Positions 4,683 through 24,368 of a DNA stretch of 64,000 bases are shown piece by piece. Under the pieces are notes generated by a model, which was not told where the DNA came from, searched no databases, and saw only the letters and a list, made by a program, of their open reading frames with translations. The position numbers were made by a program, and so were the translations under genes. Every line of letters starts with the position of its first letter. Positions within the stretch are counted from its first letter, which is position 1. This stretch comes from Vitis vinifera (taxonomy: Eukaryota; Streptophyta; Magnoliopsida; Vitales; Vitaceae), in contig NC_081813.1 of NCBI RefSeq assembly GCF_030704535.1, forward strand, positions 2,628,001 through 2,692,000, read 5' to 3'.

Positions 4683-7600
4683 ATGGAATTGTTAATTGTT
4701 CTTTCTGGATATTTAGCTTTTACTGCTATGGTTCGTGGCCAGGATCAATCCGGTACGCATATCTCTCTCACATCTCATGATTTCTTGCCCTCTCCCTCCC
4801 CTGGATCTCTCATATGCACTCTGTATCTCCAGGACTAGCTCCGAGGAACTTTCCTTTAAAGAGACGCTCACCTGTTTGATAACTGTTTTAAAAAACAGTT
4901 TTTAAGAAATGTTTTCAAAAATTATGAAACATGTTTTCCTTATTTTTTTTATTCTGAAAAACAAAATACTATTTTTAAAAACAATTGTCGAACAAACTGT
5001 TATTTTCTTTCTTGTTTCTGTTAATAGATTTTCCATGTTTTCATTTTTAAATGTTTTAGCCGATATTTATAGATGCTGAATTTTTAAATGATTTTCTCTT
5101 TAGTGCGTGAGAGAATAGAAATACATTGCTTGGTTGGGAGTTTTGTGGAGACTCCCAACTCTGTTCCAGAGTTGGTTGAGTTGAGACGCTGGGCGTGTCG
5201 TGTGTGGTCTCTGAAAAGGGGTTGATTTTGAGGATAGGTACGAGGCTGAGAGGGTGTTGGCAAGGAGAACGTTTTGCATTTGGAGAGGTGGAAACCTGAG
5301 GTAGGGTGCTGTCGTAATGGTGTGGCACCTAAGGAAGCTTGGGTGCGAATTCTGGGACTCCCGCTGCACTTATGGGCGGGATTGTTAGAAGTAGTAGTGG
5401 GCTCTTCCACTTTTTCTATTCCGAAAGGTGATGGAAGTGGTTGCAGGGATGGCTGGAGAAGACGATGAGGGAACCTCACGCGCCATTGTGAGAGTGTCTC
5501 TGGAGAAGCCGATGGAGCAGCTGGGAAGGGGTTGCGTGTCGCTCCCCGAAGGCAGGAGGAACAGGGTAAGTAAGGGCAGAGTAACTGGCCCTACTACGAG
5601 CTCTGCTGAGGTGTCAGAGTTAGGAGGCGGTGTAGTGGGAGAATTTGGAGAAGTGGGCTTCTCCGTTTGGGCCGAGTCAGTTTTCGTTCTGGCAAAGAGG
5701 ACTTAGAGGCTGATGGGCCTAGTGATGCAGGGGAGTTGTGGCCCAATTGGACATGGGCCGTTCTACTAAGGAGAGGAGAGCCCTTTAGTAATTAAAAGGG
5801 GGGGAGCCCAAGAGGGACTTGGTATTCTCGTTCTGACGAGGGGAGGTGGAGGAATCGTTAGGCCTTCTGAAGGGGATGAGGCTGGTACGGAAAGCTCCGG
5901 CTTTCGAGCCTCCGCTTGCTCCTCCGCAGTAGAGAGCGATCGTGACAAGTGGAGAGATGAAGAAGATTTTGTCCCCGTGGCTAAGAGTCATCCGATGGAA
6001 TTAGGGGTTTCTACAGTGTCGCGCCGTCAGAGGCCACAGACGAGGCTCTCTTGGCGGAGGTGACCAGTTATTCTGACTCACCCCTCTTCTCCTTGTCCTT
6101 GGGACTTTTTGGGGTTGCGGGTTTCCTCTTCTTCTTTTCCTTCTGCTTTGGGTCGAGGATTTGATGGGGAAGAGGCTGCGGTGTGTTGTGGCGACTCGAT
6201 GGAGAAGAAAGGAGTGGATTTTCAGCACCCCTGAGGAAGATTTCGGCAGATAGGAGGATAATGGAGTCTCGGTCTGTTGAAGAAGAGGAACAGGATGTAA
6301 CAGGGACCTGGGACGAAAGGGCTTTGACTTTGATTAGTGATCATATCGAGGGGGAGGGGGAGTCATCAGAGTGTTGGTCCATGAGTTGTCTTGCACAGTT
6401 CAGAAAATTATTGGGTATGCCAACAACAGGTTTTGAGAAGGAAATTTTGGCTTTGCTTAAAAAGCTGAACCAAAAAAGGAGCAGACTGGAAAAAGAGGAT
6501 CAAGTCTAGGTTCGAAAGGGAGTTGAGGAAGTTAGAATGTTCTGACAATTATAACAGAACAGGTTGGGGGAATAGTCGATCTAAAGAGGGGGGGATTCTG
6601 GTTGTAGTGGATAAATGAAGCTAAAAGTTCTCTCTTGGGATGTGAGGGGGGTTAATGACAGTGATAAAAGGGAAGTTATTAAGGCCTTAATCAAGTCCCA
6701 GAGAGTGGATTTGGTTTATCTTTAAGAAACCAAGATTCAAGACATGTCTATGGGTACTGTGCGAAGTCCTGGAGTGGGAAGAGTTTTAGAGTGGGGTGCT
6801 TTGAATTCTCGGGCTGCAGCAGGGGAGTTTTGGTTTTTTGGGACAGTAGGGTGCTTGAGTAGGTGGGTATGGAAAAAGGATAATTTTCGATATCCTGCTG
6901 TTTCAAAAATTGTGAGGATGGATTTACTTGGATTTTTACTGGGGTGTATGGCCCTACGGTAAGGAGGTTTAGAGAAGACTTTTGGGGAGAATTGGGGGCA
7001 TCAGGGGGTTTTGGGGTGACTCTTGGTGTATTGGTGGGGACTTTAACTTTAGTGAGATTCCCAAGGGAGAAAAGCAGAGGCAGTCAGTCGTGGGGGAAAT
7101 GAGAAGATTTTCAAAGGTCATTGATGACCTAGAAATGAAAGATCTGCCTCTACAGGGGGGTTCGTTCAATTGGAGGGGAGGGTTAAATAATCAATCCCAG
7201 TCTGGATTGGATCGATTCTTGGTGTCAGAGGTGTGGATTACCTATTTCAGTGGGGTGGTCCAAAGCATCTTGCTTAGACCTGTTTCTGACCACTTTCCTA
7301 TTCTGCTAGATGGGGGAGATTTGAGAAGTGGCCCTTCCTCGTTTAGGTTTGAGATCATGTGGTTGAAGGTGGAAGGTTTCAAAGATTTATTGCAGTCTTG
7401 GTGGTCGGGTTTCAGTTTCAGCGGTTCTTACAGCTACATTCTGACAGAAAAATTGAAAGCTTTGAAGGCTAAGTTGAAGGTTTGGAACAAAGAGGTTGTA
7501 GGACCTCAACAGAGGTCTTTGGCAATGTCTCGTCTGGTAAGGACAGGACTCTAAATTAGGAGGCTTTGTGGGATTCTGAGGAAGCATCCAGAGTGTTGAC

Positions 7601-10600
7601 TGGGGAGGAGCAGAATGCTAGGAATCTGGCAAGGGAAGAGTACAAGAACTGGTCCCTTCACGAGGAAACCTTGTGGAGGCAGAAGTCAAGAGAGTTGTGG
7701 CTGAAGGAAGGAGATAGAAACACTAGCTTTTTCCATAAAATGGCTAATGTTCACAGGAGAAGGAATCAGTTAGCAAAGATTACAATTAATGGGAGTTGGG
7801 CTACAGAGGAGAGAGAGATTAAGGAGGGGGTGGTTCAGGCTTTTCAGGTTCTTTTGTCTTAGACACATGGAGGCCTATTGTCAATGGGCTTTCTTTTGAG
7901 GTGTTAGGGAATCAAGATGCAGCATATCTGGAGGTCCTTTTCTCTGAGGAGGAGGTGTTCACAGCCCTTTCAGATCAAAGCACCAGGTCCTGATGGCTTT
8001 CCTATGACTTTTAGGCAGCTCAGTTGGGATTTTGTGAAGGAAGAGGTGATGGGGATTCTAATGAAAGGGGCTGTTTCATGAAGAGTTTGAATGCTACTTT
8101 TTTGGTCTTATTCCCTAAGAAAGGGGGCGCTGAAGACCTTAAGGGCTTTAGGCCTATCAGTTTGGTGGGTGGCCTCTTCAAGCTGTTTGCTCAAAAAGGC
8201 TAAGGATGGTGGTTTTTTGCCAGGTTGGAGGGTGAATGGAAGATGTGGAGATGGAGTGGTTATTTTCCACCTTTTGTTTGTCGATGATACGTTAGTGTTG
8301 TCCAAACCGAATCAAGACCAGTTGACTTACCTTGGTTATTTATGTGGTTTGAGGCCATCTCGGGGCATAGCATTAACTTGGAAAAAAGCGAGTTAATTCC
8401 GATGGGAAGAGTGGAGAATGTAGAAGAGGTAGCCCTTGAGTTTGGATGCAAGGTGGGAATACTTCCATCGTCTTATGTGGGTTTTCGCCTTGGGGCCCCT
8501 TTGAAGTCTATGGTAGTATGGGATGAGGTGGAGGAGAGGTTTCGAAGGAAGCAGGCCATTTGGAGAAGATGGTACTTATCCAAGGGTGGGAGGTGTTCCT
8601 TTATTTGAAACACTCTTTCTAGCATGCCGATATACTCATGTCCTTGTTCTATATTCCAAGGACAGTTATGATGAGGTTGGAATAGATTCAAAGGAATTGC
8701 CTTTGGAGAGGAGGAGCACTAGAGCAAAAGCCGCACTTAGTAGGGTGGTCTGTTGTTTGTACAGATAAGAGTAGGGGTGGATTGGGGGTAAAGAATCTTG
8801 CTAAGCTTAACAAAGCCCTTCTAAGTAAATGGAGCTGGCAGTTTGCAGAGGATAAGGGAGATTTGCGGAAGCAAATTATAAGTGGCAAGTATGGGGTGGA
8901 AGAGGGAGGGTGGCGATCTAAGGTGGTGAGAGGAAGTTACATGGTAGGATTATGAAAAACCATTAGAAAGGAATGGGAGCTAATATCTAATAGAGTTGTC
9001 TTCTCGGTTGGTAGTGGGTGGAGGGTGAAATTTTGGAAGGATAAGTAGTATGGTGATGTGGCATTGTGTACTTTGCTTTTTATGCTATTGCTAATCTTAA
9101 GGAGGATTAGGTGGTGGATGTTTGGCACTCAACAGTTGAACGGGGTGTTGGGCCCCTCGCTTTATTAGGGCTCTTAATGATTGGGAATTGGATTTGGTGG
9201 AACATTTTCTCTTGAGTTTGCAAAGGAGGAGGACGTGTAAGGATTAAGAAGATAAAGTGATTTGGTCAAGATCGAAATATGGGAAGTTTTCTGCTAAAGC
9301 CTTATATTTGACCTTGGAGACTGAAAGTTCTGTGCCCTTTCCTGCTAGTGTGATTTGGAATTTGTGGGTACCCTCCAAGGTTAGTTTCTTTGCTTGAGAG
9401 GCTTCTTGGGCGAAGGTGTTAACTTTGGATTGTTTAAAGAGGAGAGGGTGGCCTTTAGCAAATAGATGTTTTCGTTGTCTTGAAGAGGAAGGGACCATTG
9501 GAATCTAGTGTTCTTTTTTGGCGTGCTTTGGACACTTCCTTCTTCTATTAGAGACACACTTCTAGGATGGCATGGCTCTTTTGTCAGTCAAAGGCGGAAA
9601 AAGGTGTGGTGGGCTGCTCCTTGGAAGGAAAGAAATAGAAGAGCTTTCGAGAATGAGGAACAATCTGTTCAAGGACTAGAACTTGCTTTCCTTTGTAATC
9701 TATAGGATTGGTCTTGGTTATTTTTATTTTCTGGCCCTTCTTCAGTTGTAGATTTTGTGGATTGGGTGGGTTCTTGTTGAGGAGGATGTAGTTTTTGTTT
9801 GTCCTCGTCCTTTTTTTGTGCTTTTAAGCATTTGTTGTATACCTCCTGTGTACTTTGGAATGCTATTTTGTCCTTTTTTTGTTTATAATATACTTTTGCT
9901 TTACTCAATAAAAAAAAAAAGGAATTTCAGTCAAGAAAGTATGTTAAATACGGATAATGAAGGAAATGAGAAGTTATACCAAAGGATGATGCTGACTTTG
10001 CCAGCTGAACCCCTCACAGCAATCTTGTTCTCCTCAAACCCTCTTCGCTTGCTTAATCCTCTGTTCTCTTTACTTTCATCACCAACACATGTAAGAGAAT
10101 AACTTGAGCTTAATCCATGTGTTCCTTTACAATCCCGTGGTACAACTGAAGAAGATCCTAGAAAAACTTGTAGTTGAGAGGAAGAATTGCATGAAACATG
10201 TGGAATTCTAGGACAAATCAAAATTTTGATTTCTATTTCCTGGTATCAATTTCGAAATGACTGATGACTGATATTAAAATTTTGATAAGGGACCTCAGAA
10301 ATTGCATTTGGTATTGGCTTGGGTGCTATCTAGTAGCTGATGTCAAAGTTTAGATATGGATTTTGGTAGTGTGTCTCACTATTTGACACCGTCAAATTTT
10401 GCATGTTGCATGGGAATCCCTGAGCCAATCTTTACACACTAAATAGTACACATTTTGGATGTGTGGAAGCTCTTGAAAAACATGACCAATACTCATCAAA
10501 ACAAATGCATGAGATATGAGCACATATGGTATATGCGTGTTATGCTACCAATGACAAAATTAGGGGTCAACAATTTTTTTTTTCTTGTTCTTCCTCATTT

Positions 10601-13600
10601 TATCATCAATTTGTGCCCTTTCATATATTTGGTTGGCCCTGTTAATAATAGTTTTGTTTCCCTATAAAAAAAATTCAAAATTATTATATCAGTAGGATCT
10701 TATTTTTGTATTTCTTACTAGAAAATTTAAGTGAATTAGTTATATTAACATTGGGTATGATATTTTAGTTAACATTCAATACAAGCTAGATTTTACATTG
10801 ATCTGCCGCTCTCATGTACTCATATCTCACATGAGCATACTACTTATTGACTTGACAAGGAGAGTTTGAAATTTTGTAGGCTTCATAAGCATCGATTGTG
10901 GGATAAATCCGGGTTCCAGCTATTTTGGTGCCGCAACTGAAATATATTACATGTCAGACTCAGAATTCATAGACACTGGGATAAATTATGATGTTTCCAT
11001 AGAACACAGATCCAGGTTTGGAACTCCAGATCAGCAGCTTATGACTGTGAGAAGCTTTCCAGAAGGAACCAAGAATTGTTACACTCTTCAACCACAACAA
11101 GGCAAAGATAATAAGTACTTGATCAGAGCTTCCTTCATGTATGGGAACTATGACTCCAAGAATCAACTTCCAGAGTTCAAACTATATCTGGGTGTTAATG
11201 AATGGGATGCTGTGAAATTCAACCATTCATATGATATTGTCAGGAAGGAAATTATACATGTCCCAAGAACAGGTCACATAGATGTCTGCCTAGTGAACAC
11301 TGGTTCTGGGTCACCTTTCATATCGGCATTAGAGTTGAGACAACTGAATAATTCCATTTATTCAACTCAATCTGGATCATTGATACTCTTTAAGAGGCTT
11401 GATATTGGTTCAACACGTCAGACAGTCAGGTGAGGCATGCTGTGAGTAGGTCACTAACATTATCACCTATCACCCAATATTCACTACTTAATTTCCTTAA
11501 TTTCTTTCACCTTAAGCTTGTGTATTTCTAAATGACTTAAACTAACAAATTATATAATTCTCACCAGATACAAAGATGACGCTTTTGATCGCATTTGGGA
11601 ACCATTCAGCCGGCCTTATTGGAAATCAGTGAGCGCATCCTATAGTAGTGATACTTTAAGTGATAACCACTTTAAACCTCCATCCAAGGTCATGGCAACT
11701 GCTGTAACCCCTGCTGATGAAAGATATCCCTTGGAATTCCACTGGAATCTGGACAATTCTACTCGACAGTTCTATGTATACACGCACTTTGCTGAGGTTG
11801 AGGAGCTCCAATCCAACCAGTTGAGAGAATTGTATGTATCACTTAATGGTTGGTTCTGGAGTCCTGAACCTATTGTTCCTGGAAGATTGGTTCCACATAC
11901 TGGATTTAGCGCACATTCCATAAGTGCATCATCTGAGCTATCGCTTTCAATTTTTAAGACACACAGATCCACTCTTCCACCAATTCTCAATGCTTTGGAG
12001 ATTTATGAGATAAAACAGTTGTTTCAATCATCAACTGTCCAGAGCAATGGTATGTGTCCTTGTCCTCATATTTCTTAAGGACTTAAAGAGAATAGGATCT
12101 TTGTCTAGATCACCCTCCAGTGCCTATGAATAAGATTATTTAAATTGTGGGAGGCAACAGATAAACCTCCTCTTGACAGATTGGATTTGTTCTGGGACTG
12201 TTTATATCTCTGTCTGATTCCATGAGAATGTACTAGATTTAGGATTGGAATTTGTTGATTTGATTTCTTACTTCCAAATTTGCCATACTAAATAATTCTT
12301 CCTGATTCTTTATCTGTATTTTTCTTTTCTTTGTGGTTTGTAACATTTGAAAAGCCCACACATGATCCACTTACATCTTTGTCTATTCTTGGAAATCAAA
12401 ACTAGTTGATGCTATCAAGAAAATCAAGGCAGTTTACAAGGTGAAGAAAAACTGGCAAGGAGATCCATGTCTTCCCATTGAGTTCTCATGGAATGGCCTG
12501 AGCTGCAGTGACAACAGTCCCCTTTCCCCTAGCACCGTCTCTTTGTGAGTTTATGCAGCAAAAAAAAAAAAAAAAAAAAAAAAACAGATTTGAAGAAACA
12601 TAATTTCAATTAATTATTACTGTAACTGTTATTACATTTTGCTTCTCTTCAGTAAATAGAAAAGATGTCCAGATACTAATGTCACTCTAACTGGTAAGCA
12701 GGAACCTTTCTTGGAGCAAGTTAACTGGGAAGATAGATTCTTCATTCTCCAATCTCACATCATTAAAATCTTTGTAAGTACTATATATACATATATGAAG
12801 TGGTGGCACTTGGTATGTAGCTAAGAAAAGCTCATGGTAATGGGCTAGAATTTCACCTATTCTTTTGCTTTAGAGGCAATGCTGTCAAGGATTGACCACT
12901 TGCATGCACGTTCCCATGGCATATTGAATAAGTACAGCTACTTACTAAAGCAACCCTTTCATTACAGAGATTTATCTTACAATAGTTTGACTGGAGAAGT
13001 GCCAAACTTTCTATCTAAACTGCCTTCCTTGAAGACCCTGTAAGTTTTTAAAATCTTTTCTTTGCAAAGCTTTATCTTAATTAATCAGCAAAAGGAACTG
13101 ATGCCCAAATTCTGTGTTCTTTTGCAGGAACTTGTCAGGGAATAATCTCACAGGATCAGTTCCATTGGCTCTCATTGAAAAATCTAGAAATGGATCCCTG
13201 TCTTTGAGGTCTGGTTGCTCAAAATTAACCTTTATTTCAAGTTTTCTTGGTGGTTATTCATTTTATTCTTAGTAGCTGTCCTCGGTTCCAACTTTTCTTT
13301 CAGAATCCTGGACATATTTTTATTTCCTTTATTTTGAAATAAAATATGTTTTTCCTGCCACTCTGACATATATTAGCTTTGTTGATGGTAGATTGGATGG
13401 AAATCTGAATCTTTGTAAGAAAAACTCTTGTGAGGAAGAGGAGGACAAAGAGAAGTCCAGTAATAATGTTATTGTTCCATTAGTTGCATCCATTATTTCA
13501 GTTCTAGTCCTCTTATTAGGTGAAGTAGCAGCCTTGTGGATATTTAAAAGGAGACAACAACATGGTATTCTTCTTTGTCTTCTCGGGTATTTTAAGAAAA

Positions 13601-16119
13601 AACTTGTGACAATGCTGATTGCATTTACAATGCTCTAACTAGCTGTGATATTGTTGTAAATCAACCTAATTAATGAAGGTGGTATGGCATTGGACTCAAT
13701 GAACCCCCGCCTTAGTTACTCTGAGGTCAATAGAATCACTGGCAACTTCAAAAAGCTGCTTGACCAAGGAGAATCAGCAGAAGTTTACCTTGGCCATTTA
13801 AGTGATGGCACTGAAGTTGCAGTCAAGATGCTGACACCTTCATCAGTTCTAGTGTTTAAGCAATTCAAGACTGAGGCAAGCTTCTCTGTACTTGCATTCA
13901 AGTGATTCTAATTTTGAACTGGCTATAGCTAGTGTTCAGCTACGTAGCTAGACACAAGCAAAAAGAAAAGTCAATTTCAATGTCGTTGGTTGTGTTGATT
14001 TGAATGACAGGCTCGGCTGTTGACAAGAATTCATCATAAAAACTTGGTTTCTCTAATTGGATACTGTGATGAAGGTTCAAGGATGGTGCTCATTTACGAG
14101 CATATGGCTAAGGGGAACTTAAAAGAGTATTTATCAGGTACCTAGTTGTATTGTAGCACCGAATGAGATTTCTGGTTAATGTGGTTATTTTAATTCCTTC
14201 CATACCCCGTTAAAATTTGGTTTGTTAGAAATAGATTGAGTTTCAGCATTCATGTCCAAAAGCCATGCATTTTGACAAAACTGCAGAATCGTTCTAAGAT
14301 AGTACCAAAATAACGGCTAAATTCAATATTTGAAACTATTATTATGCTACATTTTGATTATTTCTGTGGTATTTTCAAGTAAATGCAGAAGTCTAATAAA
14401 GATTTAACTTATCATGCATGCATGCAGGCAAAAAAGAAACTGTCTTGAGTTGGGAACAAAGGCTTCGAATAGCAATTAACACGGCACAAGGTTCACTAAT
14501 TAATGAGCAGATTAACTTAAAAAAAAAATTCTTATGCCTGTCTAGTTCCTTTTTCTACTATTTTTTCCTGAACTAAGTGAATTGGAATTTGAATTGTAGC
14601 TTTGGAATATTTACACGATGGTTGCAATCCGCCCATAATCCATAGAGATGTTAAAACTGAAAATATCTTATTGAATGAAAAAATTCAAGCCAAAGTTGCA
14701 GCTTTTGGGTGGTCTAGAAGTATGCCCTCTGAAGGTGGAAGCTATGTATCAACTGCAATTGTTGGCACACCGGGGTACATCGACCCCGAGTAAGTACCCT
14801 TTGTTATTTCACTGAAAGCCAATGCTATTAAATTGATGAGTATTGTAGAAAATCAATGAAGTGAAACTTATAACAGAATTTGTGTCATCTCAATTTGATT
14901 GGGCTTTAAGTCATCGTGGCTCTTAAGTATGAGTTGCTCTTTAAGAATTGATTGTTACTTCTTTTAACATACAAACAGCTAAGCAATCGAAAATTTTATC
15001 AGTACCTTTTCTTTTAGGACAAACTGAATTTCAGTTTTTTTATTTTTTAGTTTAAATCAACTGAGGTTGTTAGCATGTTTTTCATGTAGGTACGACAAAA
15101 CCTCAGTACCAAGTAAGAAAACTGATATTTATAGCTTTGGGATTGTTTTATTGGAGCTTATTTCGGGTCGACCTGCAATCATAAAGATCACAAAAGAGAG
15201 CCCATGTAACATAGCAGATTGGGTTCACCTAGTCACTGCAAAAGGTGATATAAAAATGATCGTAGATCCAAGGTTACAAGGAGAATTTGACCCCAATTCT
15301 GCCCAGAGAGCTGTAGAGACAGCAATGTATTGTGTCCCAGTCAGCTCCATAGATAGGCCAACCATGAGTTATGTAGTAGTGGAATTGAAAGAATGTCTGA
15401 AAATAGCCATCGCCCATGAAAGAACTGACAACGCAGAAGAGGACCAGGGTCCTGTTAGTATTGAAACTGTCCAGGCAAGAACTGACAATGTGGAAGAGGA
15501 TCATGATCCTTTTGGTAGTGAAACTGCCCATGAAAGAACTGATGATGCAGAAGAGGACCATGGTCCTCTTGCTGTTGAAGCTGTCCATGAAGTAACTGAC
15601 AATGCTAAAGAGGACCAGGGTCCTGTTGGTATCGAAGCTGCACATGAAAGAACTGTCAATGTGGAAGAGAACCATGGTCCTGTTGGTATTGAAGCTGCCT
15701 ATAAAAGAACTGATGATGCAGAAGAGGACCATGGTCCTGCTGCTATTCAAGCCACCCAAGAAAGAACCGACAATGTGGAAGAGAACCATGGTCCTGTTGG
15801 TATTGAAGCTGCCCATGAACGGATTGATGATGCAGAAGAGGACCGTGGTCCTGTTGCTATTGAAGCTACCCAAGAAAGAACTGACAATGTGGAAGAGAAC
15901 CATGATCCTGTTGGTATTGAAGCTGCCCATGAAAGAACTGAAAATGTGGAAGAGGACCAAGGTCCTCTTGGTATTAAATCTGCAATGGCTATCCAAGAAA
16001 GGTGGAGATATTTGCCAAAAAATTGGTGCATATATATTGTTGAGGACTGCTCAATTCATAGTGCCTTTATTTGGAAAAACACACATTTTTTTAAATTACA
16101 TGATTTTATAGAGTTCTGA
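4683..16119 (+). CDS. RLK-A: malectin-like/LRR receptor-like kinase, predicted pseudokinase with repeat tail
   Basis: Predicted plasma-membrane receptor of plant LRR-RLK subfamily I (the IOS1/FRK1-like group). Exons by splice signals and phase: 4683-4752, 10880-11429, 11568-12049, 12406-12544, 12702-12773, 12968-13039, 13128-13208, 13392-13564, 13679-13875, 14011-14137, 14428-14490, 14600-14789, 15090-16119. The sum is 3246 nt (1081 residues), open throughout. Order: signal peptide (1-23), malectin-like ectodomain (24-367), a segment with NWQGDPC (368-413), two 24-residue LRR exons plus a cap (414-488), a membrane span (about 515-540, containing one Glu), kinase (about 570-846), repeat tail (847-1036). 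The glycine loop is degraded (GESAEV). The VAVK lysine and HRD are kept, but DFG reads AFG (codon 14701-14703), so phosphotransfer is doubtful. The exon 9 donor is GC (13876). A LINE sits in intron 1. The family is secure; function as a kinase-dead receptor is inferred. Confidence 0.85.
5095..9920 (+). mobile_element. Decayed L1-type LINE inside RLK-A intron 1
   Basis: A plus-strand non-LTR element with many stops and frameshifts. Order of recognisable pieces: ORF1 with the plant-LINE motif [12 protein letters not shown] (about 5335-5375); endonuclease start ([12 protein letters not shown], about 6620) and later endonuclease part ([10 protein letters not shown], about 7030); the region before RT (about 7570-7860); RT with the catalytic-type motif [10 protein letters not shown] (about 8277-8306), its core shortened by deletion; and a C-terminal zinc-binding RT-associated region (about 9250-9640). 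It ends in a poly(A) run at 9909-9920. I could not define a target-site duplication, so the 5' limit is approximate. It is GC-richer than its surroundings. Confidence 0.85.
9921..10879 (+). other. Remaining 3' part of RLK-A intron 1
   Basis: Intron sequence between the LINE poly(A) and the exon 2 acceptor (TTTTGTAG ending at 10879). A minus-strand open frame at 9931-10221 has no recognised similarity and no splice context. Otherwise nothing is seen. Confidence 0.5.
15412..15981 (+). repeat. 57-bp coding minisatellite, ten units, in the RLK-A C-terminal tail
   Basis: Exactly 570 bp, ten 57-bp units each encoding 19 residues on the pattern AHERTDNxEEDxGPxGIEA. The array is in frame from just after the kinase C-lobe to the last 45 residues. 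Odd and even units alternate in the middle of the array ([13 protein letters not shown] versus [12 protein letters not shown]), indicating a 114-bp higher-order unit. Cassette 2 carries only one unit (18415-18471), so the array is an expansion specific to this copy. The peptide is acidic and probably disordered. Confidence 0.95.
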
Positions 16120-16433
16120 TTATCTACAGGATAACCTCACACCATCTCGTATGGTACAATCCTCTTCCTTTCAATTTTTTTAAATTAGTATGAAAAATTT
16201 TAGAAAATTGATTGTTTGCAAGAAGGCATTTGTTGTGTTTAAAGCGACAGGAAGTGCTTGTTTTCTTCATTTTGATTTATTTTTTCTTTTTCCTAGGAAG
16301 GTCTATCCAACAAGAATGAAGTCAAAACAGCCAGTAAATTATAAAAGTTCAAGGAGTATTTGATAACAAATAACAATGATTTTTCAATAGTTCTTGTTCC
16401 CACTTTTACATATATTATCTGTTTTGACATTAG

Positions 16434-18497
16434 TTTGGAGTTTCAATGGGAATCTGGATTTTTGTAGTACAAACTCATATGAGGAGGCCAAGGAAAAGGA
16501 GGAGAAGAATATTGTTGTTCCAGCAGTTGCATCAATTACTTCATTTGTAGTCCCATCAGGTGAGTTAGTTAACTTAGAAAATTCTGAAATGAGATGGCAA
16601 CATAGTTTACTCCTATTTGTTTTATGGGGCAATTTTAAGAGAAATCTTGATATACAGAAATGCTGATTACATGTACCATGATTTTACTCTGTAGACATTG
16701 TTGTCAAACCTAACGAGGATGATAAAACATTTGAGCCAAAGAACCAACACCTTACTTATTTTGAGGTTGAAAGAATCACTGACAATTTCCAAAAGGAGCT
16801 TGGAAGAGGAGCATCATCAATAGTTTATCATGGTCATTTAAGTAATGGCACTGAAGTTGCAGTCAAGAAGCTGTCACCTTCATCAATTCTAGGGTCAAAG
16901 CAATTCAAAACTGAGGTAAAACTTCTCTATACTTGCATTCAAGTTATTATGGATTTGAACTTGCTATAGTGCGGTTACTCATTACCAGACAAACAAAAAG
17001 GAAAATCAATTTGAATGTTGTGGGTGTTGATTTGAGTGACAGGCTCAGCTTTTGACACGAGTTCATCATAAAAACTTGGTTTCTCTATTTGGATACTGTG
17101 ATGAAGGTTCAAACATGGTGCTCATTTATGAGTATATGGCAAAGGGGAATGTAAAAGCATATTTATCAGGTAGGTAGTTGATTGTACCCCTGAATGAGAT
17201 TTGCTGTTAATGTGCCTTATTGAAATTTGATTAATCAGAATAGAATCAATTTAGACATTCATGTCTAAAAATCCCATATTTTGACTGAACCATGGAGTAG
17301 TTCTAAAGATAGTGCCAAAACTATGGATGAAATTATGATTTGAAACTACTATTCTGCTAAATTTTGATTATTTCTGTTATATTTTCAAGTAATTGCAAAA
17401 GTGCATGCAAAAAAAAAATGATTTATTATGTCATGCGTGCAGGTAAAACAGAAGCTGTCCTGAGTTGGGAACAAAGACTTCAAATAGCAATTGATGCAGC
17501 ACAAGGTTTGCCAATGAGCAGATAAAATAAAAATTTTCTTATAGTTGTGTGGTTCCTTTTTATGCCACTTTTCCTAAACTAAGTTAAAGTGGAATTTGAA
17601 TTGTAGCACTGGAATATTTACACAATGGTTGCAACCCACCCATAATCCATAGAGATATCAAAACTGAAAACATCCTATTGAATGAAAAATTGCAAGCGAA
17701 AGTGGCAGATTTTGGTTGGTCTAAAAGTATGCCTGCTGAAGGTGGAAGCTATGTATTAACTGCAATTGTTGGCACACCTGGCTACCTCGACCCTGAGTAA
17801 GTGCCCTTTATTACTTAAATGGATTGCTATGAGACTGATGGATGTCTTAGTAAATGAATAAAAGAATATTAATGCAACTGAAAACAGAGTCTCTATTGCC
17901 ATTTGAGTTCTGATTGACATTTTTGTTGGCTAGCATGCATTGATCCTTAAGAACTGACTGTCACTTCTTCCTACAAACAAGTACCTAAGGCTAATCAAAA
18001 TTTTATCATAAACTTCTCTTTCAGAACAAACTCAAGTTCTTTTCTTTATTCATTATCAAAATCAACTGAGGTTGTTAGTGTGTTTTTCATGTAGATATCA
18101 CAGAAGCTCAGTGCCAAATGAGAAAACCGATGTTTATAGCTTTGGGATTGTTTTGTTGGAGCTTATTTCAGGTAGGCCTGCAATCATAAAGATAACAAAA
18201 GAGAACCTATGTAACATAACAAATTGGGTCCACCACATCATTGCAAAAGGGGATATAAGAATGATTGTAGATCCAAGGTTACAAGGAGAATTTGAGACCA
18301 ATTCTGCCAGGAGAACTATAGAGACAGCAATGTCCTGTGTATCATTCAGCTCCACTGAGAGGCCTACTATGAGCGACATAGTAGTAGAATTAAGAGAATG
18401 TCTAAAAATAGCGATGGCCCATGAAAGAACTAACAATTTGGAAGAGGACCATGATTCTGCTGGTATTGAAGCTGCAATGACTGCTGAAGAAAGGTAG
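16434..18497 (+). CDS. Kinase cassette 2: receptor-kinase exons without ectodomain, kinase intact
   Basis: A second copy of RLK-A exons 8-13, with no signal peptide, malectin or LRR exons. The membrane-span exon equivalent (from 16434) is damaged: the frame is shifted against the ancestral splice phase and the hydrophobic run is broken. A strong donor (CAG, then GTGAGT) ends it at 16559. Kinase exons are clean: 16695-16915, 17043-17169, 17443-17505, 17607-17796, 18095-18497, totalling 1004 nt without a stop. Glycine loop [25 protein letters not shown] and DPE are all present. The exon equivalent to RLK-A exon 9 ends in an ordinary GT donor. The tail has a single 19-residue repeat and ends AEER. 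No in-frame ATG precedes the kinase, so it needs an upstream exon. RLK-A exon 8 fits in phase and would give 880 residues. Either a spliced alternative cassette or a decaying duplicate. Confidence 0.7.
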
Positions 18498-18820
18498 AAT
18501 AATATTTGTCAAAAATGGGTACATATAGTTTAGACTGCTCAATTCATGGTGCAAATCCTTCTTTCTTTGGTGCACTTTATTTGGAAAAACACTCTTTTGA
18601 AATTATATGATTTTGTAGAATTGTGATTATTTGTAGGATGACCTCTTTGTTTATCTCATGGTACAATCCTCTGCAAATATTTTGAAATATGAGGATTTTC
18701 AGAAACGAAGATTATTTGAAAAAATTTGAGATGTTTAAGTTTTGATTCAATTCTTCTTCTTCTTCTTATCCAATATGAATATGTGTTGGGACAGTAAGTA
18801 ATTATCTGCTTTCATGTTAG

Positions 18821-20621
18821 TTTGGACGGAAATCCGGATTTCCATAAGACAGACTCGTATGAGAAGGCTAAGGAGAAGGAGGAGGAGAAAAAGAATTTTG
18901 TTGGTCCAGCAGGTAGATCAATTACTTCAGTTTTAGACCCCTCTGGTGCATTAAACAACTTGGGAAGATCTAAAAAGAAATTGCCACATGGTATTTTCTT
19001 ATCTGTCTTGTGGAATTACTTTAAGAACAACTTGTGATACTGAAGTGCTGATTACATTTACTATGATCTTATCAGCTAAAGATATGAATAACTCCAAGGT
19101 TGCAAGAATCACTTATGAAATTGGATATGGAGCATCTGTGCCCGGTTTACCTTGGTCATTTTCGCAATCGTATTGAGTTGGCTGTCAAGAAGCTTTCAGC
19201 TTTAAATAGAGGATTCAGGAAATTTCAGACAGAGGCAAGCTTCTCTATAGTAGCATTCAAGTTATTCTGATTTTGAACTAGCTATTGTGCAGTTATACAT
19301 TGCTAGACGCAAACAAAAATTGAAACTTAATTTGAATATTGCTGGGTGTTGGTTTGGGTGACAGGCTGAGCTGTTGACAAGAGTTCACCATAAAAACTTG
19401 GTTTCTCCGCTTGGATACCATTTTGAAAGTTCAAGCATGACACTCATTTATGAGTATATGGGGCCGGGGAGCTTAAGAAAGTATTTATCAGGTATCCATT
19501 TCTCTAATACTCAATACAATCTGTAATTGTATATGTGAAACCAATTAATAACAAAGCTATGGCTTATATGAAGATGTGAAACCACTCTTCTGCTAATTCT
19601 GATTATTTTTGCAATATTTTTAATTACAGATATTATCAGGGTTTCCCTTTATAGCCCAAAACTGCAAAAACACAAAAAAGAAAAAAAAAATAATTCTCTT
19701 ATGCCATGAGTGCAGATGAAAATGAAGCTGTTTTGAGCTGGAAACAAAGAATTGGAATAGCACTTGATGTAGCGCAAGGTTAGATTGTGCTCTCAGATGA
19801 ATGGAGAAGTTTTCTTCTATACCTCTAGTTGTGTTTCATAAATTCTTTTCCTATACTAATTACCAGGGAATTTGAATTGTAGGACTGGAATATTTACATA
19901 ATGGTTGCAAGACACCCATAATCCAGAGAGACATTAAATCTGCAAACATCTTACTAAATGAAAAGAACGAAAAATTGCAAGCTAAAGTGGCAGATTTTGG
20001 GTTGTCTAGAAGTGTGCCTAATGAAGATCCTGCTTATTTATCAACTGTGGTCGTTGGCACATGCCATTACCTTGACCCCAAGTAAGTTTTCAAGGTTTAC
20101 TTCATTGGAATGCAATGTCGACTAACTGATGGATATAGAAATTCGATCAGTCACTAAACTAAAAATATTCTAATTGACTTTTAAAAATCAAATGAAATTC
20201 TAATTTTGGGAACTGAATTCAAGTTTACTTTTCAATAGTTCTTCACTTTTTTTTTTCTTCTTCCCATAGGTATTTCTTAACGGCAGGGTTGAGTGAGGAA
20301 AATGATGTCTATGGCTTTGGGATTGTTCTATTGGAGCTTATTTCAGGCCAACCTGCAGTGGCAAAGAGCAGCGTGGGCACAGTTCACCTACTCCAATGTG
20401 TTCCTCTCCTGCTTCTTGATACGGGGGAAATCACGGCTATTGTGGATCCAAGGTTAAATATTGAACGCTTTGACATCTATTCTGCCCGGAAGCTTGTAGG
20501 AACAGCAATGGCTTGTGTAAAATGTAACTCCCCGAAAAGGCCAATCATGAGTGATGTAGCAGACAAATTAAAACAGTGTATGAACTATTTAGCAAGAACA
20601 ATTGGGGATGCGGAAGAGTAG
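18821..20621 (+). pseudogene. Kinase cassette 3: degenerate receptor-kinase exons
   Basis: A third copy of exons 8-13. Pieces: membrane exon 18821-18990 with the hydrophobic segment lost; glycine-loop exon about 19076-19234, shortened and frameshifted by one base (open frame ends at 19176, homology resumes as VYLGHF one frame over); 19365-19491; 19716-19778; 19883-20091, where HRD reads QRD and an activation-segment insertion is present; and 20270-20621 ending in TAG. DFG is retained and DPE reads DPK. The glycine-loop exon ends with a GC donor at 19235. There is no repeat tail. The frameshift plus the altered HRD make it a likely pseudogene, though a spliced transcript is not excluded. Confidence 0.75.
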
Positions 20622-22700
20622 TATCTGCCTCAGCCTTTTTCACGCCGAGTCCGACATTCAATACCATCTTAAACAAGGATTCGATCAAGAACTCGGACAA
20701 GATTCTAAGCTAAGATGCTGAAACCGATGTGTCTCGAAACCCTTTGAGTCGATGATTGAGACTGCGACTTTCAACCATGTCTTAGAGTACTAATGATATA
20801 TGCCTTTAGTACTCCTTTTAGTTGTTTTCATATGAAAGGGAATTTGTCTTACATTTTTGGAATTGTAGTTGAAGCTATCAGGAACGTAAAGTCAGTGTAT
20901 GGAGTGAAGAGGAACTGGCAAGGTGATCCTTGTGCTCCAAAAAAGCACTTGTGGGATGGCCTTGAGTGCAGCTACAATGGTTACAATTCCCCCAGGATCA
21001 TCTCTCTGTGAGTTTTCTGCCCAGGAAAAACAAGCTAATGTGAATTATTGAATTTTCTTCTTAATGAATATCATTCTAATCTGTGTCTAGGGACCTGTCT
21101 TCAAGTGGGTTGTCCGGGAAAATAGACTCTTCACTGTCCAATCTCGAATCCTTACAGTACTTGTAAGTATAAAGTAATACAATGAAAATCAAATATAACA
21201 TCTGTGAACTCCATTTTTCAACACTTTAATTCTCTAACTGTACTAGTTATTTCATTATAGAGATTTATCAAACAACAGTCTAACTGGAGAAGTGCCAGAT
21301 TTTCTCAGCCAACTGCCTCTATTGAAGACCCTGTAAGTTAATGGTATTCATTTTTTCAACATAATGTAAGTATTTTTTTGGCAAACATATAAAGAAGGGG
21401 ACTGAATCCTATGTGGCTTTGCAGAAACTTATCAGGAAATGAATTCACAGGTTCAGTTCCATCACTTCTTATCCAAAGATCCAAAAATGGATCCCTCTCT
21501 TTGAGGTTTGCTTGACAAACCGACCAAATTCAAGTTTTAGACCATCTTGATTCAGTTGAATGTTGCTAAAATTTTCCATTTGGTGCTAGCGTGGATGGCA
21601 ATCCAAATCTTTGTGTAATGGCCTCATGCAACAACAAGAAGAGTGTCGTTATACCTGTAATTGCATCTATTGCTGTAGTTTTAGTGCTTCTGATCGCATT
21701 CCTCATCTTGTGGGGCTTAAAAAGAAGACGACAACAACGGCAAGGTATTGATATCTATTTAAGAAATGATTTTGGAATGATCATAAAAAAATGCTTGTTT
21801 AGTTATATAACAATTGTTTCATCTCTGTGCATAGCCCTTGAATCCAAAGCCAATTATGAAGAAGATGGAAGATTGGAGTCAAAGAATCTGCAATTTACAT
21901 ATTCTGAACTTGTAAACATAACCAACAACTTCCAAAAAGTACTTGGGAAAGGAGGATTTGGATCAGTTTATGGTGGCTACTTCAATGATGGCACTCAAGT
22001 TGCTGTGAAGATGCTATCAGAACAATCAGCTCAAGGGTTTAAGGAGTTCCGCTCAGAGGCAAGCGCATATCTTCATCATCTATGAAAAATTATAGGAAAT
22101 TTTCTAATTTGGCTTGGATCTGAGTAAACCCATTTGCATTACAGGCTCAGCTGTTGACAAAAGTTCATCATCGGAACTTGGCTCCCCTAATTGGATACTG
22201 TAATGAAGGACGATGCAAGGGGCTTGTATACTCAGGCTTGTATATGAGTATATGGCTAATGGAAACTTGCGAGAACATATATATCTATATATATATATGG
22301 ACTCTTACGAACCTTATAGACACGTTGCATCAATTCTGATTTTGTGATTTTGTATGTAATTATTCTGTTATAGGTGCAGGAAAGGACACTCCGGTCTTGA
22401 GTTGGGAACAAAGGCTTCAAATAGCAGTTGATATCAAGCATGAAACTTCTTTCTGAACATGGATTTTTCCTCATCTAAATAACTAACAGCAGTGGAAGAT
22501 GGAATTGCAGCATTTGAATATTTACATGAAGGTTGCAAGCCACCAATAATCCACAGAGATGTTAAGACTTCCAACATTTGCTTGGATGGAAAATTGCAAG
22601 CAAAAGTGGCTGATTTTGGGCTGTCCAGATTCATGCCATCAGAGAGTAGAACTATTGTATCAACTAAAGTTGCTGGCACACCCGGCTACCTCGATCCTGA

Positions 22701-23183
22701 GTAAGTCTTCTACAACAGTAACAATCTGGGTGTTGGATTGTGAAGTCTAAATTAATGTTTTTATGCTACACGAAGGCATTGAGAGTTGAGCTCCTACCAA
22801 GCTCGCAGGAATCAAGCTCCTTGTTGAGCTCGTGGGAATCGAGATCCTTACTAAGCTCACAGGAATTGAACTATCTGCTTAGCTTGTGGAGTTTAAGGGA
22901 GTGCATCCTTCGAATAATTTTTTTTATTTATTGAGTGATGAGTTTGCCCCTACAACTCCCTCAAGCCTGGAGCAGGCCCGAGCCTACCACTCCATTCTCA
23001 ATCAGTAGGCACCAAGAGCCTTGCCCGCCACGTGCCTCATGCACAAGCGGGGTGGCTCATAGCAGCCTGGCTCACAACGGCCCTCTTGAACAAACAATGA
23101 ACCCTAACGTGGAACGTGTCAAGGAACTATATTTAACCCTTTTATGAATTAGGGTTTTGTTTTAAAGAGAAAAATTGTGTGCA
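22701..23183. mobile_element. Insertion replacing intron 12 and part of exon 13 of RLK-B
   Basis: Sequence with no counterpart in the other receptor-kinase copies. It contains about four imperfect 27-bp units (22790-22890) built on AAGCTC/GAGCTC words and a GC-richer segment (22930-23120). A TGTTGGATTGTG stretch at 22730 could be an LTR start, but I find no matching end or target-site duplication. The origin as a transposon fragment is inferred. Confidence 0.4.
22787..22893 (+). repeat. About 27-bp imperfect tandem repeats
   Basis: Roughly four units each ending in a GAGCTC- or AAGCTC-like word followed by nnnnGGAAT, within the RLK-B insertion. Confidence 0.55.
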
Positions 23184-23554
23184 GGCCGTTGTAATTGAGA
23201 GAAGTGAGAGATTTCATACCAGGCCATGAGAACACACACTTTGTTGACTGGCTCAGTCCCAGGCTTGCAGGAGGGGAAATAAGAAGCATTGTAGACTCTA
23301 CGCTAAATGGAGATTTCAACCCAAACTCGGCCTGGAAACTTGTAGAGACAGCAATGGCATGTGTGCCCAGAAGCTCCATACAAAGGCCAACAATGAGTCA
23401 AGTGGTTGCGGACCTGAAGGAGTGTCTGCAGATGGAAATGCACCGCAACAAAAGTGCTTCACAGTCTAGAAAATATCAAGATACAGCATCAAGTGCTAAT
23501 TCCATTGATCTGTTTGCTGTTGACCTCGACGTCTCAATGCCTCATGCAAGATAG

Positions 23555-24368
23555 TGAAGTATATATGGACATTGGTCTCTGGAAAATTAAGATTGTTGAA
23601 AATTTTTCTGAAACATTTCTTGGGTTCTATCAATATTTGTACTTTTATTAAAATAGAAAATAGATTATTTTTAAAAACATCTTATTTTCGGTAATTTTTA
23701 CTTGTTTTCAATCAACTATTTTATAAAATAATTATATAAATATAGAAAATAATTAAAAATAAAATAATATAAATAAAATTTATTTAAAAATATATTTAAA
23801 AATTTTAAAAATTTTAAGTTTTCAAACAAACTTTTATTATATAAAATATCACATAATAGTTTTTAAAAACTTAAAAACTATTTTTAAAAACATTTCCCTC
23901 AAAAAATAAATTCAAATTTTTAGAATTGCAATTAGTAGAGGCCTCTAAAGTTGAATAAATAAATAATTTTTAAGGTAAATTAAAAAAAGCGCTCGCGTAT
24001 TTTTTTAAGATTAAGTTTTTTTAATTTCTTTTCATTAAAAAAAATAATAGAAAAGCTGACGTGGCAAGTTCGTAGATAGATGCGACATTTTCAAACATAT
24101 CACCTAAAAGTCAATACAAATGTATGCGTAATTATCAAATGTATTTTTCGGTCAACGAGAATAAAAGGTCAAAATTCTTATACAATTCTCAAAATTTTCT
24201 AGAAGTTTCTTTTTATTATTATTTTTTATTACTTTTTTTTTTTTTCAGTTTTTAACATTTTATTTTAACTTCAGATAAAATAATAATAATAATAATAATA
24301 AACAAACATATTTAAAGCCATCTGAAACCCGTTTCTCAACGGAGGTACTCGCAGACAAGAAGAACGAA
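23555..24368. other. RLK-B to MED6 intergenic region
   Basis: AT-rich DNA to about 24000, then a short stretch including CTGACGTGGCA (24056-24066) and an AATAAT repeat (24280-24300). The MED6 leader lies immediately before 24369. No gene is seen. The two genes are co-directional. Confidence 0.5.

Follow-up and report, generated by a model that had tools for sequence, protein, structure and literature searches.

When one receptor ectodomain is followed by three sets of kinase exons, to which of them is it joined? This question is raised by a locus of the grapevine Vitis vinifera that lies in a stretch of 64,000 nucleotides (RefSeq assembly GCF_030704535.1, contig NC_081813.1, here C9; C9:2628001-2692000), called the window below, whose surrounding 262 kb were read for a survey of the receptor cluster. 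The locus consists of eight exons for a malectin-like ectodomain with leucine-rich repeats (LRRs) and three downstream kinase cassettes, each with exons A-E (positions without the C9 prefix are window positions, and the exons and relics of this unit are all on the + strand). We infer, with rather better than even confidence, that exon 8 is spliced over cassette 1 to cassette 2 and that the product is a working receptor. The 3' half of a malectin-like LRR receptor-kinase gene, from exon 8 to the kinase end, would have been copied downstream long ago, and exon 8 (end 13564) would join cassette 2 exon A (16695), skipping cassette 1, both in the window unit (U2) and in a paralogous unit (U1). The skip junction would yield an ordinary-sized receptor (880 amino acids in the window, 892 in U1) with a kinase predicted to be catalytically intact, and cassette 1 would be a possible second, faster-evolving kinase end.

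The ectodomain exons of the window unit were recomputed and agree with the first-pass annotation of this DNA: their lengths (70+550+482+139+72+72+81+173) sum to 1639 nt and end in phase 1. Exon 1 (4683-4752; 70 nt, phase 1 end; U1 counterpart C9:2579166-2579235) resembles a signal-peptide exon and is separated by an intron of ~6.1 kb (4753-10879) from exons 2-3 (10880-11429 and 11568-12049), which encode the malectin-like ectodomain. Exons 4-7 (12406-12544, 12702-12773, 12968-13039 and 13128-13208) encode the LRR part, and exon 8 (13392-13564; phase 1 end) the juxtamembrane part and a putative membrane span judged by eye. Exons 1 and 8 are both hydrophobic according to a simple hydropathy filter and inspection, as suits a putative signal peptide and membrane span. 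The Pfam scan was made on the U1 protein, of which the window ectodomain is a close paralogue, and matched PF12819 (6.5e-117) and LRR_8 (1.5e-10); by these domains the locus is predicted to be a malectin-like LRR receptor kinase, a group that we take to be subfamily I of the LRR receptor-like kinases (LRR-RLKs).

Cassette 2 comprises exons A 16695-16915, B 17043-17169, C 17443-17505, D 17607-17796 and E 18095-18497 and matches the Pfam kinase family PF00069 (7.1e-46). Exons 1-8 plus its 1004 nt give 2643 nt and, as had been claimed, a stop-free frame of 880 amino acids in which VAVK, HRD and DFG, the motifs by which an intact kinase was recognized, are all present; in place of the loop's third glycine the window has S and U1 has A. 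The closest solved chains by sequence are FERONIA and SymRK. The exon A acceptor is intact by eye at the family position (ttactctgtag/ACATTG), and the cassette 2 splice sites have canonical dinucleotides. As a separate observation, the donor after kinase exon A is GC in 11 of the 16 cassettes and GT in the two copies of cassette 2. When cassette 2 was searched as DNA against the whole genome, with only the best candidates scored, 28 matches were listed; U1 and U2 led by a wide margin, and 26 of the 28 lie on C9. The shared phase of the three cassettes, to which the first-pass annotation drew attention, was recovered for all of them, but cassette 3 is frameshifted and its join to exon 8 stops after residue 579. 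Cassettes copied from one set of exons should agree in this way; the agreement follows from homology and is no evidence in itself. The statement that cassettes 2 and 3 have no ectodomain exons needs correction, since each retains a degenerate copy of the membrane-span exon 8 (c2T and c3T), and the copied block therefore extended from exon 8 to the kinase end. The relic before cassette 2 (c2T, 16434-16559) is open, with an eroded membrane span; it was considered as a coding insert, being open (126 nt; 135 nt in U1) and in phase between exon 8 and cassette 2 exon A, but its omega (ratio of nonsynonymous to synonymous rates) of 0.96, from only 13 differences, lends such a use no support.

The survey of the 262 kb by tblastn revealed 10 receptor genes with a single cassette each and two units in which three cassettes follow one ectodomain. 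The second of these units, U1 (C9:2579166-2598355), is outside the window, ~50 kb upstream of U2, and the two align from 10079 onward. Their introns and spacers are 8.6% diverged, with 39 indels in 3951 aligned bases, when the two introns flanking cassette 3 exon D are excluded; the ectodomain exons are about 7% diverged. The U1 ectodomain joins in frame to all three of its cassettes (1065, 892 and 864 amino acids), and duplicated 3' exons with compatible phase and open frames are thus found in cassettes 1 and 2 in the window and in cassettes 1, 2 and 3 in U1. Since the whole unit of one ectodomain and three cassettes is present twice, the layout is old. In an IQ-TREE phylogeny of the 16 kinase cassettes, the clade of the cassette 1 pair is sister to that of the cassette 2 pair (support 100), and a neighbouring gene, G5, is grouped with the cassette 3 pair (94). 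Divergence is uneven along the units: window 11373-11620 is near-identical to U1, and intron 2 differs by 0.7%, compared with 8.6% for introns and spacers as a whole, a pattern that gene conversion would leave; the intron between exons A and B of cassette 2 is also low, at 2.4%.

Selection was estimated with our own code for a GY94-type codon model, using F3x4 frequencies and a single IQ-TREE topology; the branch-model p values are uncorrected for 8 branch classes with two tests each. The truncated copy G6b and the broken copy C9:2704546 were left out of the trees, exon E was cut to 111 codons, the window cassette 3 contributes 30 of 74 exon-A codons, and the ectodomain test covers exons 2-4, with 34 of 47 exon-4 codons from U1. 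Cassette 2 has an omega of 0.264 on its tips (versus 1, p=2.3e-6) and 0.266 on its stem, before the unit was duplicated (p=2.6e-4), with 0.395 on the other branches of the family; its pairwise NG86 omega is 0.230 (bootstrap 0.131-0.396), and its nonsynonymous rate is below the intron rate (p=4e-7). The ectodomain gives similar values on the U1 and U2 tips (omega 0.291; versus 1, p=1.4e-6), in the pairwise NG86 estimate (0.264) and in its nonsynonymous rate, again below that of introns (p=1e-6). For exon 8, omega between U1 and U2 is 0.32, versus 0.96 and 1.96 for the relics c2T and c3T (small counts). These rates indicate that cassette 2 has been under purifying selection since the duplication of the unit, as has the ectodomain, and that the constraint runs along exons 1-8 and then through cassette 2.

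Cassette 1 (A 13679-13875, B 14011-14137, C 14428-14490, D 14600-14789, E 15090-16119; Pfam kinase) presents a different picture. Exons 1-8 plus its 1607 nt do give 3246 nt and 1081 amino acids with an AFG motif, as had been reported, and the join at the acceptor 13679 was reproduced; however, this acceptor is not the ancestral site of the family, which lies 36 nt earlier (13643). From the ancestral position (13643-13660; aactag/CTGTGATATTGTTG) the frame leads in both units to AVILL and then a stop, TAA in U2 and TGA in U1. Among 58 acceptors scored with a small matrix built from the cluster's own sites, 13679 and its U1 counterpart are the two lowest, and the ancestral acceptor also scores low (0.5 in U2, 1.6 in U1), so that splicing entry to cassette 1 appears impaired in both units. 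Omega on the cassette 1 tips is 0.80 (U1) and 0.51 (U2), neither different from 1 at 0.05, and 0.62 jointly, which differs from that on the cassette 2 tips (p=0.022); the pairwise NG86 omega is 0.527, and the nonsynonymous rate shows no significant reduction relative to introns (p=0.12). Since the ectodomain and cassette 2 are alike constrained and cassette 1 is relaxed, cassette 2 looks like the main partner of the ectodomain and cassette 1 like the doubtful one. The tail of cassette 1 contains a 57-bp in-frame minisatellite in 10 copies (15412-15983; omega 0.98, small counts), which codes for an acidic 19-residue repeat; the U1 copy number differs by one, and the repeat evolves neutrally.

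Several observations weigh against splicing past cassette 1 as the full account. The omega of cassette 2 is not significantly below background (p=0.155 for tips, 0.265 for the stem and 0.073 together). The low score of the window acceptor 13679 (-1.80) is close to that of the next site (-1.70) and thus only marginally worse than those of some accepted sites. The cassette 1 frame of ~1.5 kb is open in both units, with 0 stops versus 4.5 expected at the intron rate (P=0.011; the window tail was trimmed by 36 codons, where 38 is exact, and the frameshift expectation, taken from the indel rates of introns, is an upper guess), and exons B-D show constraint (omega 0.34, p=0.0013), with 1.56 for exon A and 0.70 for exon E. 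By these measures cassette 1 is not simply dead. The two units are far more diverged at synonymous sites (0.157) than in their introns (0.086), and gene conversion appears to have homogenised parts of them. Finally, no spliced retrocopy of the exon 8-cassette 2 junction was found in the genome search, where all 7 matches end at the exon edge. A pairwise contrast in cassette 1 (omega 0.24 for exons B-D, 14011-14789, versus 0.98 for A and E; Fisher p=0.012) was noted post hoc.

The open and partly constrained state of cassette 1 could be accommodated by a two-output receptor, in which one ectodomain would be alternatively spliced to paralogous kinase ends, the same signal reaching different kinases; we put this forward tentatively, as a possible extension. 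The kinases would perhaps both be active in U1, and the window unit would have either a pseudokinase or an active kinase; skipping of cassette 1 and the short AVILL-stop form would together set the ratio of active, dead and kinase-less receptors. The first-pass annotation had proposed alternative receptors of this type, with a pseudokinase or an active kinase. In its favor, the long frame of cassette 1 is open in both units and its exons B-D are constrained, but the proposal is no more than plausible, and the pseudokinase is found in the window unit only. There, cassette 1 has lost its glycine loop, DFG has become AFG, and the loss of the stop codon has added a 38-residue extension, so that, with AFG and no glycine loop, it lacks the catalytic motifs of a receptor kinase; U1 cassette 1 retains the glycine loop and DFG. 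Between the two units, the predicted pseudokinase state is therefore confined to the window copy.

A different use of cassette 2 would be as a separate cytosolic kinase, resembling a receptor-like cytoplasmic kinase (RLCK), driven by a promoter of its own within the 16.1-16.7 kb spacer, with a start at ATG 16589 (MRWQH) followed by a weak donor (ATA/GTTTAC) spliced to 16695; we consider this unlikely. The claim that cassette 2 has no in-frame ATG of its own is correct for its kinase exons, where the first Met is residue 99 in both units, but the conserved upstream ATG at 16589 could serve as a start after one more splice. Between 15990 and 16694, 11 ATGs are common to both units, of which two (16589 and 16660) are followed by a conserved in-phase GT and an open frame in both; the first of these, which forms a potential micro-exon (16589-16604), counts against the skip junction, and a stand-alone kinase would account for the constraint on cassette 2 without skip-splicing. 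However, the leaders are only 5 or 4 residues long, the first donor is poor by eye, and candidates this short would presumably arise by chance. A separate kinase would also leave unexplained the constraint on the ectodomain and exon 8 beside a relaxed cassette 1.

It is less probable still, and in our view quite doubtful, that cassette 1 exons enter a product together with those of cassette 2, either as hybrid kinases (e.g., cassette 1 A to cassette 2 B, or cassette 1 D to cassette 2 E) or as a tandem kinase. The exon phases allow several hybrids, and the constraint on exons B-D of cassette 1, with none on A and E (0.24 versus 0.98, p=0.012), is a point in favor, but that contrast is post hoc and a full N-lobe requires exon A of both cassettes. 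For a tandem kinase, straightforward read-through into cassette 2 is closed by the own stop of cassette 1, which is present in both units, and two kinase domains in one open polypeptide were not found.

The simpler proposal of the first-pass annotation, a recent partial duplication in which every extra cassette is a neutral leftover before decay, is very improbable for the locus as a whole. It suits the window cassette 3 (A 19076-19234, frameshifted; B 19365-19491; C 19716-19778; D 19883-20081; E 20270-20621), which is pseudogene-like: with its exon A frameshift and the change of HRD to QRD in exon D it lacks the catalytic motifs, and it is probably dead. U1 cassette 3 is open, with the motifs HRDVT and DMG. 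Omega on the cassette 3 tips is 0.70 (U1) and 1.14 (U2), the pairwise NG86 estimate is 0.773, and the nonsynonymous rate is raised relative to introns. Both exon 8 relics fit the same description; the one before cassette 3 (c3T, 18821-18990; omega 1.96 on 23 differences) was considered as the membrane span of cassette 3 and rejected on that omega. For cassette 2, however, the proposal fails, as omega 1 is rejected (p=2.3e-6), the estimate is ~0.26 on tips and stem alike, and the layout, common to two units with introns 8.6% apart, is older than both. The 262 kb contain two further headless kinase copies; next to the closest parent of each, both prove to be broken, one of them while still 96-98% identical to its parent over most of its length. 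G6b (20788-23656), directly behind cassette 3, is a truncated receptor copy without malectin exons whose aligned pieces are still 95-98% identical to the neighbour gene C9:2621732-2625416, and in its kinase the frame changes in exon B, the match to exon C is shortened and the start of exon E is lost; the copy at C9:2704546-2707109 has stops in exons A, D and E. Headless copies in this cluster therefore decay, even young ones. For cassette 2 a neutral leftover is refuted, except in the case that the cassette is preserved by gene conversion from a selected gene, against which stands the cassette 2 pair as its own clade (support 100). An assembly artefact is hardly conceivable: tandem families are prone to mis-assembly, but the units are ~8-9% apart throughout and carry different lesions, and there is no N in the 262 kb.

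Some further features of the region were recorded. Window intron 1 by eye resembles broken retroelement sequence and matches the U1 intron 1 region weakly; three open, retroelement-like pieces of it compared with Pfam gave no family at E up to 0.01. Two exon-1-like signal-peptide exons (C9:2616891-2616960 and C9:2619857-2619929) lie upstream of one gene at C9:2620027. The kinases of cassettes 1 and 2 are placed near G5 (support 69), but the ectodomain tree unites G5 with G3 and G4 (100) and puts the U units elsewhere (48); this mismatch between kinase and ectodomain trees gives a hint of domain exchange.

If the exon 8-cassette 2 junction is used, the locus would encode a plant receptor with a replaceable signalling end and would show how receptor families alter kinase output without altering ligand recognition. 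Gene predictions in which such an ectodomain is joined to cassette 1, as the nearest kinase, would then be wrong about the protein. The question can be tested directly, since the two paralogous units differ in cassette 1, which is apparently catalytic in U1 and a pseudokinase in the window.

Within its own cluster, the locus shares domain order and the kinase exon order A-E with the 10 single-cassette malectin-like LRR receptor kinases, but has three cassettes where each of these neighbours has one kinase cassette per ectodomain. In poplar, 7 of 16 malectin-domain clusters hold members without LRRs, and local partial duplicates are described (PMC7783096); local duplication omitting some domains is common to both cases, but the poplar examples are separate domain-lacking genes, unlike the headless kinase found here beside a complete gene with matching phase. 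Cereal tandem kinase proteins combine a kinase and a pseudokinase in one polypeptide (PMC10544919), and the same pairing occurs here at one locus, except that a stop ends cassette 1 before cassette 2. Alternative splicing has been confirmed for 34 cases among Arabidopsis LRR-RLK genes (PMC2817689). In the terms used, no paper listed by a literature search was recognisable as describing a receptor kinase in which several kinase cassettes accompany one ectodomain, and the closest precedents found are YrAS2388R and Pm4b. The wheat kinase-MCTP Pm4b has a common part alternatively spliced to different C-terminal parts, with both variants needed (PMC10544919); the grapevine locus would likewise have one common protein part and alternative ends, the splicing here being predicted, but the common part of Pm4b is the kinase and its C-termini are unrelated in type, whereas here the ectodomain would be common and the ends are paralogous kinases. 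YrAS2388R (NLR4DS-1), from wheat relatives, has a second 3' end through the insertion of a partial copy of its own 3' exons; transcript variants (five, by cloned cDNAs) use either end, and the variants with the first 3' end gave no resistance (PMC6731223). The grapevine locus resembles it in the duplication of its own 3' exons, here with compatible phase and open frames, and differs in that YrAS2388R is an intracellular NLR with one insertion and variants demonstrated by cDNA, whereas the grapevine gene is predicted to encode a membrane receptor and has its three kinase cassettes in each of two paralogous units.

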